Positions 1 to 6,514 of a DNA stretch of 64,000 bases are shown here, piece after piece. A program made the translations under genes and the position numbers. Within the stretch, counting starts at the first letter, position 1; the number at the start of each line of letters is the position of its first letter. The stretch comes from Actinokineospora xionganensis (lineage in GTDB: Bacteria > Actinomycetota > Actinomycetes > Mycobacteriales > Pseudonocardiaceae), in the NCBI RefSeq assembly GCF_014323725.1, contig NZ_JABVED010000001.1, positions 230,505-294,504 of the forward strand, given 5' to 3'. The notes under the pieces are model-generated. The model was not told the DNA's origin, did no database searches, and was given only the letters and a program-made list of their open reading frames with translations.

Positions 1-1563
1 CGCGACCCGGGTGACCCGGACGCGGTAGGTGGCGCCACGCAGCTTGAGGTCGAGCCCGCGGCCGCTCTCGTGCCGCACCTGCGGCCTGCCGCCGAACGCG
101 GTGGACAGCAGCCGCTGCTGTTCGACGCCTTCCTCTTCCTCATAGGCCTGGATGGCGGCCGCGGCGATGGCGACGGCGGAGTGGCGCTGGGAGACGAGCC
201 TGCCCTCCCCGCGGACCCGGTCGATCCAACCGGTGTCGGCGCTGGCGTCGATGACCTCGGGCTGGTCGAGCAGGTCGAGCACGAAGCTCTTGTTGGTCGC
301 GCCGCCGTCGATGATCACCGTGGTGGCGGCCATGGCGTGGCGCAGCCTGCCCAGCGCCTCGGTCCGGTCGCGGCCGTGGGCGATGATCTTCGCGATCATC
401 GAGTCGAAGTCGGCGGGGATGGTGTCGCCCTCGCGCACGCCGGTGTCGACCCGGATGCCGGGGCCCGAGGGCAGTTCCATCCGGACGATGCGGCCGGGGG
501 AGGGCGCGAAGTCGCGGTCCGGGTCCTCGGCGTTGAGCCGGGCCTCGACGGCGTGTCCGCGCTCGACCGGCGGCTCGCCCTCCAGCCGGTTCCCCGACGC
601 CACCCACAGCTGGGCCTTCACCAGGTCGAATCCCGTGGTGGCCTCGGTGATCGGGTGCTCCACCTGCAGCCGGGTGTTGACCTCCAGGAACGCGAACACC
701 TTGTCGCCGGGGTGATACAGGAACTCCACGGTGGCGGCGCCGCGGTAGCCGACCGCGACGGCAAGCCGCTCGGCGGACGCCTTGAGCTCGGCGGTCTGCT
801 CGGCGCTGAGCACCGGGGACGCCGACTCTTCGATGATCTTCTGGTTGCGCCGCTGGATCGAGCAGTCACGCACGCCAAGCGCCCACGCGGTGCCCTGGCC
901 GTCGCCGATCACCTGCACTTCGACGTGCCGGGCGCCGGTGATGAGGCGCTCCAGGAACACGACTCCGCTGCCGAACGCCCGCGCCGCCTCCTGGCTGGTG
1001 CGCTCGTAGGCCTCGGCCAGGTCGGCGTCGGTGGTGACGACGCGGATACCGCGCCCGCCGCCGCCCGCGGTGGCCTTGAGCATCAGTGGGTAGCCGATTC
1101 CGGCCGCGGCCGACAGCGCGGCGTCGAGCGACTCGACCGGCCCGCGGCTCCACGGCGCGACGGGCACGCCGACCTCCTCGGCGATCAGCTTCGCGCCGAT
1201 CTTGTCGCCGAGCTTGCGCATCGCGTCGGCGCTCGGTCCGACGAAGGTGACGCCGACCTCCTCGCAGAGCGAGGCGAACGCCGGGTCCTCGGCGACGAAG
1301 CCCCAGCCCACCCAGGCGGCGTCGGCCCGAGTCTCGACCAGCGCCTGCTTGAGCACCTTCAGGTCGAGGTAGGGGCGGGCCGAGGCGGGCCCCAGGTTGT
1401 AGGCGACGTCGGCCGCGCGGACGAACGTGGCGTTGCGGTCGACGTCGGTGTGCAGAGCGACCGTTTCGATCGCCGTCCCCGTCTGCGCGGCCAGCTCCCG
1501 GGCGGCATGGATGAGCCGCATCGCGGCCTCTCCGCGGTTGACGATCGCGATACGGCGGAACAT
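1..1563 (-). CDS. Acyl-CoA carboxylase, biotin carboxylase part (partial)
   Basis: Minus-strand frame open from an ATG at 1563 to the window edge (521 codons, 3' end missing). It begins MFRRIAIVNRGEAAMRLIHA, the biotin carboxylase N-terminal fold, then an ATP-grasp domain with a glycine-rich loop (AGGGGRGI, about residues 165-172) and the EVNTRLQVEHPITE signature near residue 300. Residues beyond about 460 match the linker seen in long actinobacterial acetyl/propionyl-CoA carboxylases, in which biotin carboxylase, biotin carrier and carboxyltransferase are fused; the later domains would lie outside the window. Role: ATP-dependent carboxylation of biotin for malonyl- or methylmalonyl-CoA. The start is supported by a GAGAGGGAAGG ribosome site. 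Family assignment is firm; acyl substrate and full fusion are inference. Confidence 0.93.
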   Translation of the reverse strand, partial: MFRRIAIVNRGEAAMRLIHAARELAAQTGTAIETVALHTDVDRNATFVRAADVAYNLGPASARPYLDLKVLKQALVETRADAAWVGWGFVAEDPAFASLCEEVGVTFVGPSADAMRKLGDKIGAKLIAEEVGVPVAPWSRGPVESLDAALSAAAGIGYPLMLKATAGGGGRGIRVVTTDADLAEAYERTSQEAARAFGSGVVFLERLITGARHVEVQVIGDGQGTAWALGVRDCSIQRRNQKIIEESASPVLSAEQTAELKASAERLAVAVGYRGAATVEFLYHPGDKVFAFLEVNTRLQVEHPITEATTGFDLVKAQLWVASGNRLEGEPPVERGHAVEARLNAEDPDRDFAPSPGRIVRMELPSGPGIRVDTGVREGDTIPADFDSMIAKIIAHGRDRTEALGRLRHAMAATTVIIDGGATNKSFVLDLLDQPEVIDASADTGWIDRVRGEGRLVSQRHSAVAIAAAAIQAYEEEEGVEQQRLLSTAFGGRPQVRHESGRGLDLKLRGATYRVRVTRVA

Positions 1564-1822
1564 CCGACCGACCTTCCCTCTCCTCGACGTCGCCCCTGAG
1601 CATGTGGCGCTCCGGGGCGGGTGTCTGGCGGCATCTTGTCGACGAGTGAGCAGAACTGGCGTTGCCCGCTGTCGACAGCTGACTGTATCGAGTCACACTC
1701 GGTGAGCGTCGCGATATGCCGTCACGGTGTCGCGGGTCCGCTGCGCCGCCTTCCCCTCAAAGTAATGAATCCGAGTTCACCCGAGGGAGGCGGTCGAAGC
1801 GTGCGTCGTCCCTACAAGCGGA

Positions 1823-2449
1823 GTGAATTCCTTGTCGGGAACGGCGTCGTGCGGGTCGCTCGATTTCGCCGCTTCCGGCCGGGAAAGTGGGAATGATCGG
1901 CGAGCGGCGTGCCCGAATCAGGTCGATCTGCTGTACACCAGGTCCGACCACAGCTATCCCTCGCTGGTCTCCAAGGCCGCGAAGCCCGCGAGTTTCACTG
2001 ACGTGACCTGTGGGGCCGCCACGACCGTTCACATGACCTGCAATCGGTTCGGCGTCGTGGGCCCGCAGTTCAACGCCCTGAATCCGCACACCGGCTGGTC
2101 ACGGTCGGCATCGGCGGCAACGACATCCCGTTCGCCGAGATCCCGGTGACCCGGTGATCATGCCGGAGGGCGGGAGCGACTGCCGGGCGCTGGTGCCGAT
2201 CGCCTCGGGCGACGCGCCGTGCCTGCGCGACATCACCAAGCTCCTGAACGCCGTGCTGTCCGGCGTGGCCGCGACCAACGGCGCGACTTGCGTGGACACC
2301 TACGCCGACGGCATCGGCCATGACGTCTGCCAGTTCCCTGGTGTCAAGTGGATGGAGGGCGTTTCGCCTCAGGGGCCGTTGCCCGCGCACCCCATGCGTT
2401 GGGGACACGGAACCAGGCCCGGCAGGCGCTGGCGGCAATGGGCCGCTGA
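1823..2449 (+). pseudogene. Decayed SGNH/GDSL-type secreted esterase
   Basis: Plus-strand fragments of an SGNH hydrolase scattered over frames. About 1907-2090 gives CPNQVDLLYTRSDHSYPSLV and a DVTCGAATT block. A second frame at 2093-2150 gives LVTVGIGGNDIPFAEI, the block III GND motif of the family. A third frame from 2154 gives IASGDAPCLRDITKLLNAV through a VDTYADGIGHDVCQFPGVKW block that carries the catalytic-site DxxH (GHD) region. The last motif, HALGTRNQARQALAAMGR before the TGA at 2447, needs one more frame change near 2390. The signal peptide, the GDSYSS block and the middle of the protein are missing. No single frame can encode an active enzyme. Confidence 0.7.
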
Positions 2450-2618
2450 GTGGTCGGTGACCGGACCGGGTCGTGCGACGAGGGCCGCGACTCGGACTGG
2501 TATGTCCACTTTGGACTTTCGGTGACCGCCATCCGCGACCGATCCCGTGCTCGGCGCGGGCCATTCCCGTCTGACACCGGAAACGGAGCCCGGTCATGAC
2601 CCGGGAACTGAAAACTGA

Positions 2619-2647
2619 TTGACCCATCGGGTTTTGTGCGACACGAT
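2619..2647 (+). promoter_or_regulatory. Putative sigma70-type promoter of the tRNA array
   Basis: TTGACC at 2619-2624 and CACGAT at 2642-2647 are separated by 17 bp, in a locally AT-richer stretch. It lies about 30 bp upstream of the small ORF at 2676 and about 250 bp upstream of the first tRNA. The -35 matches the consensus well and the -10 only at three positions, so this is a reasoned guess. Confidence 0.4.
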
Positions 2648-2675
2648 CGTTCCAACACCGACGAAGGAGATCGAC

Positions 2676-2819
2676 ATGACGAGCATGTGGAAGCGAGGAA
2701 CGCGTAGCTGTTATAGCTGTGCGAGCCGTGCCGCGTGCTTGTGGAATCTCCGTGTCGTCGAGTCCATGTGGATCGAACGGTCGCAGCTGAGCAGGTCAGG
2801 CTCCCCGCCGATGGCGTAG
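2676..2819 (+). CDS. 47-residue Cys/Trp/Ser/Arg-rich small ORF, candidate leader peptide
   Basis: ATG at 2676 follows GAAGGAGATCGAC, an excellent ribosome site, and the frame ends at TAG 2817-2819. The peptide resembles no family I know. Its composition is unusual: 9 Ser (5 as AGC), 6 Arg, 4 Met, 3 Trp, 3 Cys, 2 Glu and 1 Tyr, so 28 of 47 residues are amino acids carried by the eight tRNAs encoded immediately downstream. The last codons form the 5' arm of a hairpin (2799-2805 with 2833-2839) that competes with a terminator stem (2836-2843 with 2859-2866). This suggests a transcription-attenuation leader rather than a functional protein. The ORF could also be accidental. Confidence 0.4.
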   Translation: MTSMWKRGTRSCYSCASRAACLWNLRVVESMWIERSQLSRSGSPPMA

Positions 2820-2839
2820 ACACGTCATGTGAGGGAGCC
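2799..2839 (+). promoter_or_regulatory. Possible antiterminator hairpin
   Basis: GGCTCCC (2799-2805) pairs perfectly with GGGAGCC (2833-2839). Inside it, CGCC (2806-2809) pairs with GGCG (2813-2816) and can stack on the outer stem. The 3' arm shares bases 2836-2839 with the terminator stem that follows, so the two structures exclude each other. The 5' arm lies in the last sense codons of the small ORF, where a terminating ribosome would cover it. Confidence 0.4.
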
Positions 2840-2875
2840 GTCCATCGGGAAACCGAGTGGGCGGCTTCTTTGTTT
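2836..2875 (+). terminator. Intrinsic terminator-like hairpin before the tRNA array
   Basis: AGCCGTCC (2836-2843) pairs with GGGCGGCT (2859-2866) over 8 bp with one G-T pair. It is followed by a T-rich tract (TTCTTTGTTT, 2866-2875), unusual in DNA of this GC content. It stands between the small ORF and the first tRNA, so it would stop array transcription unless prevented from folding. Confidence 0.5.
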
Positions 2876-2891
2876 CCCATGCCCGGGGCAA

Positions 2892-2960
2892 GTCGGCGAG
2901 CCGTGGCGGCGAAGCGGTCTCCAAAACCGTATTCCGGGGGTTCGATTCCTTCCGTCGATG
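2892..2960 (+). tRNA. trnW: tRNA-Trp (CCA), reduced D-arm
   Basis: Acceptor GTCGGCG (2892-2898) pairs with CGTCGAT (2953-2959) including two G-T pairs; discriminator G2960 matches the bacterial Trp rule. Anticodon arm GCGGT-CTCCAAA-ACCGT has CCA at 2921-2923. The T-arm is GGGGG-TTCGATT-CCTTC. The D-arm is shrunken to CCG-TGG-CGG, giving 69 nt in all. No 3' CCA is encoded. The fold is complete but non-canonical, so it may be functional or degenerate. Confidence 0.6.
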
Positions 2961-3052
2961 CTTTGTGCGCCAGTGGCGCGTGCGTATTTCGACAACTTCA
3001 CAGCGGAGCATCCATGGTCCTGGTCCCCTCGCTTCGAGGCTGGCCAGGCCTT

Positions 3053-3135
3053 GGTGGAGGCGGGCTGCGGAGCCCGACCCGGCTGTAAACCGGGCGCCCG
3101 AGAGGGCACAGGTGGTTCGACTCCACCCTCCACCA
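3053..3135 (+). tRNA. trnY: tRNA-Tyr (GTA)
   Basis: Class II tRNA. Acceptor GGTGGAG pairs with CTCCACC (3128-3134) and the discriminator is A3135. Anticodon arm CCCGG-CTGTAAA-CCGGG has GTA at 3085-3087. A long variable arm (CGCCCGAGAGGGCA) is followed by T-arm GGTGG-TTCGACT-CCACC. The D-arm GGGC-TGCGGA-GCCC has a short loop. The 92 bases between this gene and tRNA-Trp hold no further tRNA that I recognise. Confidence 0.85.
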
Positions 3136-3140
3136 CGCAC

Positions 3141-3213
3141 ACCCCTGTAGCTCAGCGGACAGAGCAGCGGCCTCCGACGCCGTCGTGCGCCGGTTCGACT
3201 CCGGCTGGGGGTA
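3141..3213 (+). tRNA. trnR: tRNA-Arg (CCG)
   Basis: Complete 73-nt cloverleaf. Acceptor ACCCCTG pairs with TGGGGGT (3206-3212), discriminator A. The D-arm is GCTC-AGCGGACA-GAGC. Anticodon arm GCGGC-CTCCGAC-GCCGT has CCG at 3174-3176, reading codon CGG. T-arm GCCGG-TTCGACT-CCGGC. It begins five bases after tRNA-Tyr, so the two must be co-transcribed. Confidence 0.92.
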
Positions 3214-3215
3214 CG

Positions 3216-3243
3216 GCGCCGCGGACAGGGGTGTCCGCGGCGC
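3216..3243 (+). other. Strong spacer hairpin between tRNA-Arg and tRNA-Glu
   Basis: GCGCCGCGGACA (3216-3227) and TGTCCGCGGCGC (3232-3243) form a perfect 12-bp stem with a GGGG loop. No T-tract follows, so it is more likely an RNA-processing or insulating element than a terminator. Confidence 0.6.
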
Positions 3244-3250
3244 TTCGGAT

Positions 3251-3322
3251 GGCCGGCGGGGCTGTGGGTTAGGCCGCCGCACTTTCACCGCGGAGTACAG
3301 GGTTCGAGTCCCTGGCCGGCTG
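3251..3322 (+). tRNA. trnE: tRNA-Glu (TTC)
   Basis: 72-nt cloverleaf. Acceptor GGCCGGC pairs with GCCGGCT (3315-3321), discriminator G. The D-arm is GGCT-GTGGGTTA-GGCC. Anticodon loop CTTTCAC carries TTC, with an A-C mismatch closing the anticodon stem. T-arm CAGGG-TTCGAGT-CCCTG. It resembles the normal actinobacterial Glu tRNA around the anticodon but differs elsewhere. Confidence 0.85.
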
Positions 3323-3326
3323 CGCG

Positions 3327-3345
3327 GTGCCCCGAACAGGGGCAC
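3327..3345 (+). other. Spacer hairpin between tRNA-Glu and tRNA-Ser
   Basis: GTGCCCC (3327-3333), loop GAACA, GGGGCAC (3339-3345): a perfect 7-bp stem in the only spacer between two tRNA genes. No T-tract follows. Confidence 0.5.
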
Positions 3346-3355
3346 ACACGATCAA

Positions 3356-3441
3356 GGAGGGCCGGCCGAGCGGTAAGGCACCGGCTTGCTAAGCCGCGGT
3401 CCGGACATGATCCGGCGCGCGTTCGATCCGCGCGCCCTCCG
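3356..3441 (+). tRNA. trnS: tRNA-Ser (GCT)
   Basis: Class II tRNA of 86 nt. Acceptor GGAGGGC pairs with GCCCTCC (3434-3440), discriminator G as required for serine. Anticodon loop TTGCTAA gives GCT, reading AGC/AGT. A long variable arm precedes the T-arm GCGCG-TTCGATC-CGCGC. Confidence 0.9.
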
Positions 3442-3452
3442 CGCACGACGAA

Positions 3453-3506
3453 GTGGACAACAGCGGTCCACGCCCGGATCGACCAGCGACAGCAAACCGT
3501 TGTCGC
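3453..3506 (+). other. Two spacer hairpins between the serine tRNAs
   Basis: GTGGAC (3453-3458) pairs with GTCCAC (3466-3471), and GCGACA (3486-3491) pairs with TGTCGC (3501-3506). Together they fill most of the 69-base gap between the two serine tRNA genes. Confidence 0.45.
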
Positions 3507-3510
3507 ACCG

Positions 3511-3597
3511 GGAGGATTGGCCGAGTGGTAAGGCAGCCGTCTCGAAAACGGCGGTCGGCGTGAGAGCGTCGCGCAGGTTCGATCCCTGCATCCTCCG
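3511..3597 (+). tRNA. trnS: tRNA-Ser (CGA)
   Basis: Class II tRNA of 87 nt. Acceptor GGAGGAT pairs with ATCCTCC (3590-3596), discriminator G. Anticodon arm GCCGT-CTCGAAA-ACGGC gives CGA, reading TCG. A long GC-rich variable arm is followed by T-arm GCAGG-TTCGATC-CCTGC. This is the most canonical tRNA of the array. Confidence 0.93.
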
Positions 3598-3670
3598 CCG
3601 CCGTTCGCGGCACCGCGGGTCACCGGCCCAACTCAACAGAGCCTGCCGGGGGCACGTCGCCATTCCACAC

Positions 3671-3739
3671 CGCGCGCGGTTCGGCAACCGCCCGGGACTC
3701 ATAACCCCGGGTCACCTGGATCGACACCAGGGCGCGCGA
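3671..3739 (+). tRNA. tRNA-Met-like (CAT), degenerate
   Basis: Acceptor CGCGCGC pairs with GCGCGCG (3732-3738), discriminator A. Anticodon loop CTCATAA gives CAT, as in elongator Met tRNA, with an A-C mismatch at the loop end of the stem. The T-stem CCTGG/CCAGG is intact, but the loop ATCGACA departs from the usual TTCRANY. The D-arm is compressed to GGTT-CGGC-AACC with no room for positions 8-9. It could be a Met or Ile2 tRNA, or a pseudo-tRNA. Confidence 0.5.
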
Positions 3740-3764
3740 CCAACATCCGGCACCGAGCCTGCCC

Positions 3765-3835
3765 GGCCCACGTCACGACGGTCGTGAGGCGGCCTGCAAC
3801 GCCGTCGACACCGGGTTCGACTCCCGGGTGGGCCT
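3765..3835 (+). tRNA. trnC: tRNA-Cys (GCA)
   Basis: Cloverleaf of 71 nt. Acceptor GGCCCAC pairs with GTGGGCC (3828-3834), discriminator T, the known Cys identity base. The D-arm is CACG-ACGGT-CGTG with a short 5-nt loop. Anticodon arm GCGGC-CTGCAAC-GCCGT gives GCA. T-arm CCGGG-TTCGACT-CCCGG. This is the last gene of the array. Confidence 0.8.
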
Positions 3836-3879
3836 CAACCCCCGTGACCCCAACCTGAAATTCCGGGGAGGCGGACTGA

Positions 3880-4695
3880 CTAGCGGCTGGATTCGCGGTT
3901 GAACAGCTTCGTCGACCACAGGTAGCCGCCGAGGGCGATGACGACGCACCAACCGACCGCGATGGCGGCGTTGTTTCCGATCGGCGTGCCCATCAGCAGC
4001 CCCCGCAGGGTCTCGATGAGCGGGGTGAACGGCTGGTACTCGGCGAACCAGCGCAGCACCATGGGCATCGAGTCGGTCGGGACGAATCCGCTGCCGAGGA
4101 ACGGAAGCAGCACCAGCGGCATGCCGACGTTGCTCGCCGCCTCGACGCTCTTGCTGGCCAGGCCGAGCGCGACCGACAGCCAGATGAAGGCGAAGGCCAT
4201 CATCACCAGGACACCGACGACGGCGAGCCAGTCGCCGACGCCGGCTGAGGGCCGGAACCCGATGGCCAGCGCGACACCGAGGACCGCCGTGATGGCGAGC
4301 ATGGTCTGGATGAGGCTGCCGACGACGTGTCCGGTGAGGACGGACACGCGGGCGATGGCCATGGTGCGGAACCGGTCGACGATGCCCTCGGTCATGTCCA
4401 TGGCGACCGAGATGGAGGTGCCCTGGACCGCTGAGGAGATCGTCATCAGGATGATCGCCGGGGTGACGTAGTCGAGGTATTCGGCACGTCCGCCCGCCGC
4501 GCCGCCGATCCCGGCGCCGAGAGCGCCGCCGAAGACGTAGACGAACAGCAGCAGGAAGACGATCGGCATCCCGATCAGCAAGACCGTCATCGACGGGTAG
4601 CGCAGCATTCGTTTGAGGTTGCGGCGAAGCATGGTCGCGGAGTCGGTCAGGGCGTACATCATCGACTTGTCGACGGTGCTGGTCATGGTGCTCAT
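3880..4695 (-). CDS. DrrB-type ABC-2 exporter permease
   Basis: 271 residues. A hydrophilic N-terminus with a Thr/Ser-rich start leads into NLKRMLRYPSMTVLLIGMPI and about six transmembrane segments, the ABC-2 / daunorubicin-resistance DrrB layout. Its ATG overlaps the stop of the ATPase gene (4692-4695, ATGA), so translation is coupled and the two form one exporter in the cytoplasmic membrane. Substrate is unknown; relatives export anthracyclines, other natural products or lipids. It is the last gene of a four-gene minus-strand operon that starts with an RHH protein at 7110. Family assignment is strong, substrate is not. Confidence 0.92.
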   Translation of the reverse strand: MSTMTSTVDKSMMYALTDSATMLRRNLKRMLRYPSMTVLLIGMPIVFLLLFVYVFGGALGAGIGGAAGGRAEYLDYVTPAIILMTISSAVQGTSISVAMDMTEGIVDRFRTMAIARVSVLTGHVVGSLIQTMLAITAVLGVALAIGFRPSAGVGDWLAVVGVLVMMAFAFIWLSVALGLASKSVEAASNVGMPLVLLPFLGSGFVPTDSMPMVLRWFAEYQPFTPLIETLRGLLMGTPIGNNAAIAVGWCVVIALGGYLWSTKLFNRESSR

Positions 4696-5645
4696 CGGGA
4701 GGTCACCTTCTCGTTCTTGGGGTTGCCGGTGAGGGCGAGGAAGACGTCGTCGAGGTCGGGGGTGTGCACGCTCAGCGAGTCGACCTCGACCGACGCGCCG
4801 TCGAGCCGGTCGAGCAGGGCCTTGAGCGAGCGGAGGCTGCCGTCGTGCGGCACCCGCAGGTCGAGCGCCTCACTGTCGCGCGAGACCTGGCCCAACGCGC
4901 GGGCGGCGGATTCGAGGTCGCGGACCTCGGCGAACCGCAGCAGGACGTGGCCGCCGGGGATGCGCCGCTTGAGTTCGTCAGCGGTGCCCTCGGCGACGAT
5001 CCTGCCGTGCTCCAGGACCGCGATCCGGTCGGCGAGTTCGTCGGCCTCCTCCAGGTACTGCGTGGTGAGGAAGATGGTGACGCCGCCCGCCACGAGGTCG
5101 CGGACGATCTGCCACATGCCGCGGCGGCTGCGCGGGTCCAGGCCGGTGGTCGGCTCGTCGAGGAAGATCACCTGCGGCGAGCCGACCAGGGTCATCGCCA
5201 GGTCGAGCCGCCGCCGCATCCCACCGGAGTAGGTGGATGCCGTCTTTTTGCCCGCTTCGACCAGGTCGAACTGTTCGAGCAACTCGGCGGCGCGGCGCCT
5301 GCCCGCCGCCCGGCCGAGGTGGTGCAGGTCCGCCATCAGGATCAGGTTCTCCTGGCCGGTCAACAGGTTGTCGACGGCGGAGAACTGCCCGGTGACACCG
5401 ATCGCGGCACGGACCGCGTCGGGATCGGCGGCCACGTCGTGGCCCGCGACCACCGCGGCGCCCCCGGTCGCGCCGATCAGGGTGGACAGGATCTTGACCG
5501 TGGTGGTCTTGCCCGCGCCGTTGGCGCCGAGCAGGGAGAAAACGGTTCCCCGCGGTACACGCAGGTCGATACCGTCGAGCACGACGTGTTCGCCGAACGA
5601 CTTGCGCAGGCCGGTGGCCGTGATCGCGGGCTGGCTGGTGGTCAT
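4692..5645 (-). CDS. DrrA-type ABC exporter ATPase
   Basis: 317 residues from ATG 5645, preceded by AAGGGGGATCC. Walker A GANGAGKTT at about residues 40-48, signature YSGGMRRRLDLA near 139-150, Walker B IFLDEPTTGLD near 160-170, and an H-loop replaced by TTQYLEEAD, where Gln takes the usual His position as in DrrA-family proteins. The C-terminal 90 residues form the accessory domain of the DrrA/NodI group. It powers the adjacent DrrB-like permease, with which it shares an ATGA overlap, and begins 20 bp after the DUF4097 gene ends. Export role is inferred from the family. Confidence 0.94.
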   Translation of the reverse strand: MTTSQPAITATGLRKSFGEHVVLDGIDLRVPRGTVFSLLGANGAGKTTTVKILSTLIGATGGAAVVAGHDVAADPDAVRAAIGVTGQFSAVDNLLTGQENLILMADLHHLGRAAGRRRAAELLEQFDLVEAGKKTASTYSGGMRRRLDLAMTLVGSPQVIFLDEPTTGLDPRSRRGMWQIVRDLVAGGVTIFLTTQYLEEADELADRIAVLEHGRIVAEGTADELKRRIPGGHVLLRFAEVRDLESAARALGQVSRDSEALDLRVPHDGSLRSLKALLDRLDGASVEVDSLSVHTPDLDDVFLALTGNPKNEKVTSR

Positions 5646-5665
5646 GAGTGGATCCCCCTTGTGAA

Positions 5666-6514
5666 TCAGGAACGGCGGACGGTGATGTCGCCGTAAGAGG
5701 TGTGGGCACGGACTTCGACGGTCTCCTCGGACTTCTCCGGTCCGGCGCCCGCGTCGTCCAGCGACTTGTGCACCCGCCCGTGCCCGGTGTTCAGGTCGAG
5801 CCACGCGGCCGTGCCGTCGGCGACACCGACCTCGAGGTCGCCGGTCGCGGTGTTCATGACGACCGAGCCGCGCACGACCTCGCCGATGCGGATGCTTCCG
5901 TTGGCGGTCTTGGCTTCCACCCGGGCATCGGCCCGCTCGACGGTGATGTCGCCGTTGGCCGAGCGAACCTTCAGCTCGCCGGTGACGGTGCCGAGGTCGG
6001 TGTCGCCGTTGGAGTTCTTGATGACCGCCGTGCCGTCGATCTGTCCGATGTGGATCCGGCCGGTGCCGGTGGCGATCTCGGCGTCGCCCGCGACCGCGTC
6101 GACGGTGACGTGGCCGCCGGAGGTGTCCAGGCGCAGCGCGCCGGTCCGGTCGAGGCGGAAGTGGCCGACCGAGGTCTTGAACCGGCACTCGCCCAGCACA
6201 CCGGTGCCGCGGACGTCGGCGACCGACAGGTCACTGTGCACCTGGGAGCCGGTGGGAAGTTCGATCAGCACGTCGACCGACCGCGACTTCTTGGAGAAGT
6301 CGAGGGCGCGGGACTTCGGCCCGCGCACCAGCAGGGTGCCGTCGGCGTACTCGACGCGGGTCTTCTGCGCGGCCTCGACGTCGGAGACGTCGGCCTCGTC
6401 GCTCGGCCGCACCTCGACGACGGTGTCGGTCCGGTCGCCGGCGACGATCCGCACGTCCCCGACGGACAGTTCGATGGTGACGGAAATCGGTTCCGGAGTG
6501 GCGAAAACAGGCAT
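5666..6514 (-). CDS. DUF4097-family beta-strand-repeat protein
   Basis: 282 residues from ATG 6514 behind GAGGGGAC. It has no signal peptide and no membrane segment. From about residue 75 it consists of short repeating beta-strands such as SNGDTDLGTVTGELKVRSAN, NGDITVERA and TATGDLEVGVADG, the DUF4097/adhesin-like beta-helix pattern. Molecular function is unknown. It lies between an RHH protein and a DrrAB exporter, a neighbourhood I recall as common in actinobacteria, and probably belongs to the same exporter-linked module. The family call is firm; any role as sensor or scaffold is speculation. Confidence 0.85.
   Translation of the reverse strand: MPVFATPEPISVTIELSVGDVRIVAGDRTDTVVEVRPSDEADVSDVEAAQKTRVEYADGTLLVRGPKSRALDFSKKSRSVDVLIELPTGSQVHSDLSVADVRGTGVLGECRFKTSVGHFRLDRTGALRLDTSGGHVTVDAVAGDAEIATGTGRIHIGQIDGTAVIKNSNGDTDLGTVTGELKVRSANGDITVERADARVEAKTANGSIRIGEVVRGSVVMNTATGDLEVGVADGTAAWLDLNTGHGRVHKSLDDAGAGPEKSEETVEVRAHTSYGDITVRRS

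Follow-up and report, generated by a model that had tools for sequence, protein, structure and literature searches.

Tests of a predicted leader-peptide attenuator whose codons match the tRNA array that follows it in Pseudonocardiaceae

What controls a cluster of eight tRNA genes in a genome whose housekeeping tRNA set already looks full, and in which every anticodon of the cluster has a second copy elsewhere (counted in this genome only)? The cluster lies in the window, a 64,000-nt stretch of the Actinokineospora xionganensis genome (contig NZ_JABVED010000001.1, positions 230,505 to 294,504). The original prediction had placed a promoter, a ribosome site, a 47-codon ORF and two competing hairpins in front of it, and had proposed an attenuator that senses the tRNAs it controls. 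Sequence reading and folding recover each of these parts at the predicted position:

2619..2647, + strand: promoter TTGACC-17-CACGAT (sequence reading)
2664..2669, + strand: ribosome-binding site AAGGAG (sequence reading)
2676..2819, + strand: leader ORF of 47 codons that would sense tRNAs for Trp, Tyr, Arg, Glu, Ser, Met and Cys (sequence and frame-specific leader-array match)
2799..2839, + strand: hairpin 1 (antiterminator), 2799-2805 with 2833-2839, inner stem 2811-2817 with 2822-2828 (folding, sequence, covariation)
2836..2875, + strand: intrinsic terminator, 2836-2843 with 2859-2866 (folding, sequence, covariation)
2892..2961, + strand: tRNA-Trp (CCA) (ARAGORN)
3053..3136, + strand: tRNA-Tyr (GUA) (ARAGORN)
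3141..3214, + strand: tRNA-Arg (CCG) (ARAGORN)
3251..3323, + strand: tRNA-Glu (UUC) (ARAGORN)
3356..3442, + strand: tRNA-Ser (GCU) (ARAGORN)
3511..3599, + strand: tRNA-Ser (CGA) (ARAGORN)
3672..3742, + strand: Met-like tRNA (CAU), short D arm, CCA encoded (by eye and folding; missed by ARAGORN)
3765..3836, + strand: tRNA-Cys (GCA) (ARAGORN)

In the promoter, a 17-nt spacer separates the -35 hexamer TTGACC (2619-2624) from the -10 hexamer CACGAT (2642-2647), which lies 28 nt ahead of the leader ATG. A recount of the ORF (MTSMWKRGTRSCYSCASRAACLWNLRVVESMWIERSQLSRSGSPPMA) returned the composition originally reported: 28 of its 47 codons specify Ser, Arg, Met, Trp, Cys, Glu or Tyr, including three Trp, three Cys and five AGC serine codons. 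Hairpin 1 (-24.6 kcal/mol, z = -4.0 against 60 dinucleotide shuffles) has the outer arms GGCTCCC (2799-2805) and GGGAGCC (2833-2839). The terminator (-22.4 kcal/mol, z = -5.1 on the same scale) pairs AGCCGTCC (2836-2843) with GGGCGGCT (2859-2866), followed by TCTTTGTTT; it encloses an inner stem (2844-2848 with 2853-2858, bulged at 2857) and a GAAA loop (2849-2852) and runs into a T-rich stretch (2866-2875). Because both hairpins use AGCC at 2836-2839, they are mutually exclusive, as predicted; that they overlap by only 4 nt counts against the mechanism. The tally of eight tRNAs behind the terminator also held, with seven called by ARAGORN and the Met-like gene as the eighth; 3' ends resembling the latter occur in three further loci (L013, L136 and L209).

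Standard promoter and terminator scans of window positions 1-6000 gave no match, probably because the -10 hexamer has three of six consensus bases and the terminator stem is bulged at 2857. At E up to 5, the leader (2560-2880) matched no Rfam family, T-box included, and otherwise returned tRNAs and sub-threshold matches only. Just upstream of the leader promoter, window positions 1800-2450 hold a frame-broken remnant that reads, by eye, like a secreted hydrolase.

The composition of the window leader is unconvincing by itself: ranked by the fraction of residues served by the window array, it comes only third among 134 leaders. Conservation of the element and the match at many loci are what carry the case beyond chance. 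A DNA search of 100 relatives found the stretch 2783-2877 recurring upstream of different tRNA arrays, and a covariance model (R1) was built from 17 aligned copies. R1 matched 135 of 297 sampled Pseudonocardiaceae genomes at E 1e-3, with at most eight matches per genome, and 108 of 297 at E 1e-8 by our own count of the table; the second figure is the safer one, since E 1e-3 takes in background. An order-wide search at E 1e-3 gave matches in 83 of 397 genomes, 46 of these outside the family by our own count, the best of which reached 39.4 bits (E 3.1e-8). Class-wide, three of 394 genomes matched at E 1e-6, two from the genus of the window and one from outside the family (35.5 bits). We rejected out-of-family matches as copies of the element: the two that were read (L275 and L276) are ordinary terminators behind an unrelated gene, and tRNAs were absent behind all three loci checked (L275-L277).

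Pattern searches retrieved records named Lentzea, Amycolatopsis, Saccharothrix, Kutzneria, Allokutzneria, Actinophytocola and Pseudonocardia, together with one 'Rhodococcus rhodnii' and one 'Nocardia sp.'. The last two names (L060, 'Rhodococcus rhodnii NRRL B-16535', and L047, 'Nocardia sp. NRRL S-836') look wrong, and the match scores equal those of G146:C7 and G311:C124, both in Pseudonocardiaceae genomes. In a second family of the order, three of five genomes carry arrays behind leaders that have diverged and are broad in composition, as in MSGTRMNAEQQMWLLSEGVPCVRYPSCSTNGLQEPHRERWRS, with a terminator-like hairpin after the leader; five such loci were recognized by reading (L308, L309, L310, L313 and L314). 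At a locus from another family (L033), a clear leader was not found by eye.

For statistics, we entered 158 R1 matches from the high-scoring end of the range rather than a random sample, leaving out a duplicate (L024, of L193), a truncated element (L063) and all matches below 45 bits. Dropping 18 exact duplicates gave 140 distinct elements, and dropping six more that had no ARAGORN tRNA in range (L070, L129, L149, L189, L193 and L209) gave 134 loci. The original prediction had named related arrays as the place to look for the ORF and the competing hairpins; leader ORF and downstream tRNAs occur together in 134 of the 140 distinct high-scoring elements, and the hairpins covary over 100 of them. 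Twenty-three of the 134 arrays consist of a single tRNA. The elements were gathered by RNA structure, and arrays without the element lie outside the sample. Leader ORFs were chosen from ribosome site and start codon without regard to the array, and doubtful choices were kept (for example, L181, L185, L057 and L077). Undetected Met-like tRNAs contribute noise. A further 12 loci (L240-L251) and the automatic loci L082-L111 and L253-L274 stand outside the statistics. A strict promoter (TTGAC-N16..19-YANNNT) lies within 90 nt upstream of 42 of the 134 leader ORFs, compared to 0.6 expected from mononucleotide shuffles, with spacers of 17 or 18 only. An ATG starts 126 of the 134 leaders, a figure partly built in by the start-codon-based ORF picker.

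Three strong copies occur in the A. xionganensis genome itself, and each leader fits its own array by eye. The window copy, rich in Trp, Cys, Tyr, Ser, Arg, Glu and Met codons, precedes Trp, Tyr, Arg, Glu, Ser, Ser, Met and Cys tRNAs; on C70, the leader MTAANVQRGVGRRFGTAHIVRRRLGIGFPQ precedes tRNA-Arg (ACG); and on C34, a leader ending ...PLVLPVLGLPLLEQRLGSSGSPP belongs to Glu, Leu, Leu, Gln and Gln tRNAs now ~6 kb downstream, beyond an insert with integrase/recombinase-like ORFs (by eye) that separates a HAD_SAK_2 gene from the array. A fourth match in this genome is weak (37.7 bits).

Covariation was assessed in an alignment (A2) of 100 chosen elements, fitted to a model that leans towards both structures. 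For hairpin 1, 91.3% of cells were paired, nine of 13 pairs had changed on both sides and none of 500 shuffles paired as well, with slid versions at 36-53%. The terminator reached 98.9% (0 of 500 shuffles; slid versions 19-49%); for both comparisons, kin sequences can beat shuffles without structure. The outer four pairs of hairpin 1 lie outside the model and vary little because AGCC has a second role in the terminator; one of these pairs is open in 18 of the 100 elements and another in 20. Median energies were -23.3 kcal/mol for hairpin 1 and -23.5 kcal/mol for the terminator in 91 of 98 representatives, the other seven having failed the motif finder. At the level of sequence comparison, the element and both of its structures can be regarded as established.

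Leader codons match the array at their own locus. Across 134 loci, the downstream array served on average 0.379 of the residues in its own leader, compared to 0.235 (sd 0.008) when arrays were shuffled (z = 18.7; 0 of 20,000), and one locus per cluster (98 loci) gave 0.372 versus 0.230 (z = 17.3; 0 of 20,000). The codon bias that the original prediction had proposed to seek upstream of related arrays is present: in the 98 loci, 340 of 351 array amino acids were represented by one or more cognate codons in the leader of the same locus, compared to 249.4 (sd 7.3) in shuffles. Taken singly in the same set, 17 amino acids reach p 0.05, Asn and Thr are not significant and His is marginal, above p 0.05. 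Among five leaders chosen for clarity, many others being less plain, MAATWDRADRDWFPDF... precedes Trp, Asp and Phe tRNAs; MKSKLECQSAKLELSLELDRLLV precedes Glu, Leu, Leu, Gln, Ser, Lys and Cys; MTQSRTQELLLLLLLLSCADSPP precedes Leu and Leu; MTNTRRCCSRSPGSPP precedes Arg and Cys; and MMNMRHAVHPVHRMLL... precedes Val and Met.

The original prediction had allowed that ORF and terminator might be coincidence, and the loci are indeed related: leaders have a common start, in many cases M.SM.KRG, and a common end, in many cases GSPP, and kin leaders travelling with kin arrays could mimic a match. Yet the signal is confined to one frame (z = 17.2 in frame; -0.2 and 0.3 in frames +1 and +2), which places it in translation; the reverse-complement frames gave z of 1.8, 2.2 and -0.9, a faint off-frame signal. 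Shuffling only among similar leaders left z at 17.1, 9.2 and 6.4 at 60, 65 and 70% identity (125, 91 and 77 loci; 0 of 5,000 each); shared ancestry therefore does not explain the match. Across 587 homologous leader pairs, which are not independent, the side bearing a given tRNA had more cognate codons 1,959 times, equally many 501 times and fewer 321 times. In the nearest homologue of the window (L021), whose leader is 82% identical, all three Trp codons are replaced, and tRNA-Trp is absent both between the terminator and the first tRNA (Tyr) and among the called array tRNAs. Together with the sharp positional boundary described below, these results leave coincidence or shared ancestry a negligible chance, and we rejected it. 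The comparison fixes the reading frame and the codon-to-array match as properties of the sequences compared, and the frame-specific match suggests that the leader ORF is translated.

Within four amino acids, the match reaches isoacceptors: the synonymous codons used agree with the anticodon encoded in the array for Arg (z = 5.0), for Leu (3.0), for Gln (2.9) and for Val (2.1), and the agreement is not significant for Ser, Glu, Gly, Pro, Lys or Thr. CGG, for instance, makes up 25 of 136 Arg codons where only the ACG tRNA is encoded versus 15 of 30 where only CCG is (p = 0.0007). This makes it more likely, short of proof, that the leaders sense tRNA species and not amino acids.

The match also bears on a broader switch, in which any slowing of translation would induce and codon identity would be unimportant. 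The actinobacterial uORFs of whiB7/wblC work in this manner and share the geometry of uORF, terminator and overlapping antiterminator (PMC11550727); in the passages covered, complete translation favours the terminator and disturbed translation the antiterminator (PMC11550727, PMC12121999), the same translation-dependent hairpin choice as proposed here. The Anabaena trn tRNA operon, a silent backup array like those proposed here, comes on under translational stress and is induced by translation antibiotics (PMC10272220), and our element should respond to stalling drugs as well. However, a general sensor would not need codons that track the array. The whiB7/wblC output, in the same passages, is a transcription factor with a broad trigger, whereas the codons here fit the tRNA genes that follow; the trn operon is under a repressor protein, TrcR, and 'attenuat' and 'leader' have no occurrences in the text of PMC10272220. 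A switch that answers to general stress only is unlikely, and we rejected it given the codon match by locus, frame, leader pair, similar-leader shuffle and position.

The position of the matching codons is equally specific. In the 98 loci, cognate excess is flat in the antiterminator arm (z = 0.4) and in the two codons before it (-0.5), and rises upstream of the arm to z = 9.7, 10.3 and 10.5 at codons 2-4, 5-7 and 8-11; on this sequence evidence, the cognate-codon zone coincides with where a stalled ribosome would leave the arm free. In 93 of 134 leaders the stop codon falls at the same distance from the start of the model, a place where a terminating ribosome would cover the arm. Stalling, antitermination and induction are thus read from the anatomy of the element. 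In the window, transcription would start just after 2647 and a ribosome would load at 2676. While the sensed tRNAs are plentiful, it would reach the ORF end and cover GGCTCCC (2799-2805); hairpin 1 would be blocked, RNA polymerase would stop at the terminator (2836-2875) and the array would stay off. If a tRNA read by the ORF is missing, or the ribosome otherwise stalls, it would wait upstream and let hairpin 1 form, which would take AGCC (2836-2839) from the terminator base and allow transcription of the array. The array, as a second and diverged tRNA set, would then restore the lost decoding capacity. On reading the window we noticed no classical 1:2 (anti-antiterminator) hairpin, and untranslated RNA should accordingly read through, unlike in the trp leader.

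Taken together, the 134 matching loci and the covariation of both hairpins support the original proposal: the element is very probably a leader-peptide transcription attenuator with the same tRNAs as input and output, and the sensor role of the leader is strongly supported. Classical leader-peptide attenuators precede trp, his and ilv operons, and the element resembles them in its short ORF rich in regulatory codons, its terminator and overlapping antiterminator and its control by ribosome position. It differs in controlling tRNA genes instead of enzymes or synthetases, in sensing many tRNAs at once, in the rewriting of its codons at each locus to fit the array and in having no 1:2 hairpin that we noticed. 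T-box riboswitches, which bind uncharged tRNA directly, likewise read tRNA status by transcription, whereas the element would work through a translated ORF. A literature search that covered few subscription papers and preprints, and sources partly in excerpt, found no paper placing a leader peptide before tRNA genes; a leader peptide that controls tRNA genes while sensing them would possibly be the first described case. If so, bacterial tRNA arrays would gain a testable function, the on-demand replacement of specific tRNAs; more than 100 naturally re-coded attenuators would form a data set on the codons at which a ribosome must stall; and the modular design could serve as a sensor for single tRNAs.

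The array tRNAs look like a separate, diverged lineage. Their median identity to the native isoacceptor of genome G000 is 64%, and that isoacceptor is the best native match for only 136 of 529 array tRNAs. Of 487 distinct array tRNAs, 361 depart from this isoacceptor at anticodon-loop position 32, 33, 37 or 38. Among the array tRNAs for Arg (ACG), 65 of 69 carry A37 where the native tRNA has G37, as do 24 of 26 for Leu (CAG) and 23 of 26 for Arg (CCG); G37 replaces native A37 in 12 of 14 Phe and also in Asp; and C33 occurs in all ten Val (GAC) and in 11 of 21 Leu (GAG), although U33 is nearly universal in tRNAs. Native loops of a second genus (G049) agree with G000 for 27 of 29 isoacceptors, among them Phe, Val (GAC) and both Arg (ACG) and Arg (CCG); an additional variant occurs there for Asp, and Val (UAC) differs, while Leu, Gln and Tyr are outside the 29. 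Several tRNA-Leu calls (L193, L222, L225 and L239) are 75-77 nt long without a long variable arm, which is unusual for tRNA-Leu; such calls occur in an array and among native Leu (UAA), Leu (CAA) and Leu (UAG).

Such divergence would be expected if the array were a phage or plasmid relic and the leader a functionless leftover promoter region, and tRNA arrays do occur on phages and plasmids (PMC5966550, as far as covered). Nevertheless, the structure and codon match are maintained across the family, window positions 2600-2900 had no match among 50,697 phage records at blastn sensitivity, and one terminator pattern had none in viral contigs. Ten plasmid records matched, each in tRNA positions of the query only; for one mycolicibacterial plasmid array, the 240 nt viewed begin inside the array. 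We rejected the relic reading, which is very improbable. The Mycobacterium array units of PMC5966550 are likewise actinobacterial tRNA gene clusters; 'promoter', 'leader' and 'attenuat' have no occurrences in its text.

What signal would the attenuator answer to in nature? One candidate is amino-acid starvation, with uncharged tRNA as the signal and the extra tRNA capturing scarce amino acids. Stalling at cognate codons would look alike in either case, and classical attenuators sense charging. Yet a larger tRNA supply does not increase charging, a single leader covers many unrelated amino acids and the match reaches isoacceptors for four amino acids. ORFs of at least 90 aa occur in tRNA-free gaps longer than 330 nt inside arrays at only three loci (L022, TPR; L027, HAD; and L046), none of them identified as a synthetase or pathway enzyme. 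In the passages of PMC1262725 covered, leader-peptide attenuators stand at trp operons, trpS and leuS of Actinobacteria, those at trpS and leuS being in Streptomyces, a point in favour of starvation; on balance we consider this trigger doubtful here.

Destruction of housekeeping tRNAs, by tRNA-cleaving toxins or in phage defence, is the natural trigger we infer instead, with less support than the sensor itself: the genes behind the element are nearly always tRNAs, they are redundant (in one genome), their loops are altered and the match reaches isoacceptors. The neighbourhood suggests the same. The gene nearest downstream of the attenuator in L027 and in L193 (C34:55000-63600 of the A. xionganensis genome) encodes HAD_SAK_2 ('HAD domain in Swiss Army Knife RNA repair proteins'), and on C34 and in genome G014 the order is attenuator, HAD_SAK_2, tRNAs; with the redundancy and the anticodon-loop changes, this points to tRNA damage. 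Phage tRNAs offer a parallel: their anticodon-loop changes are predicted to evade VapC, PrrC and colicins, and these redundant sets are proposed to replace nuclease-destroyed tRNAs, though they are not chromosomal, and the passages covered describe no inducible sensor (PMC10264068). The arrays could then form a 'tRNA immune reserve', that is, silent, nuclease-resistant chromosomal backups, several of them per genome and independently coded, each with a programmable sensor of the destroyed tRNA, which would switch on matching replacements after attack by tRNA-cleaving toxins, bacteriocins or phage-triggered defence; we give this fuller picture an even chance.

Some strong elements have other neighbours. 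In the first 300 nt behind the terminators of L149 and L209 lie tRNA-like genes that ARAGORN missed, with insertions of ~60-70 nt in the anticodon region by eye; similar proteins follow at both loci, the one at L149 having no Pfam match. No tRNA was seen behind three further strong elements: L129 precedes an amidohydrolase gene, and in L070 and L189 the element lies directly upstream of an HNH endonuclease gene, where the attenuator may have been reused.
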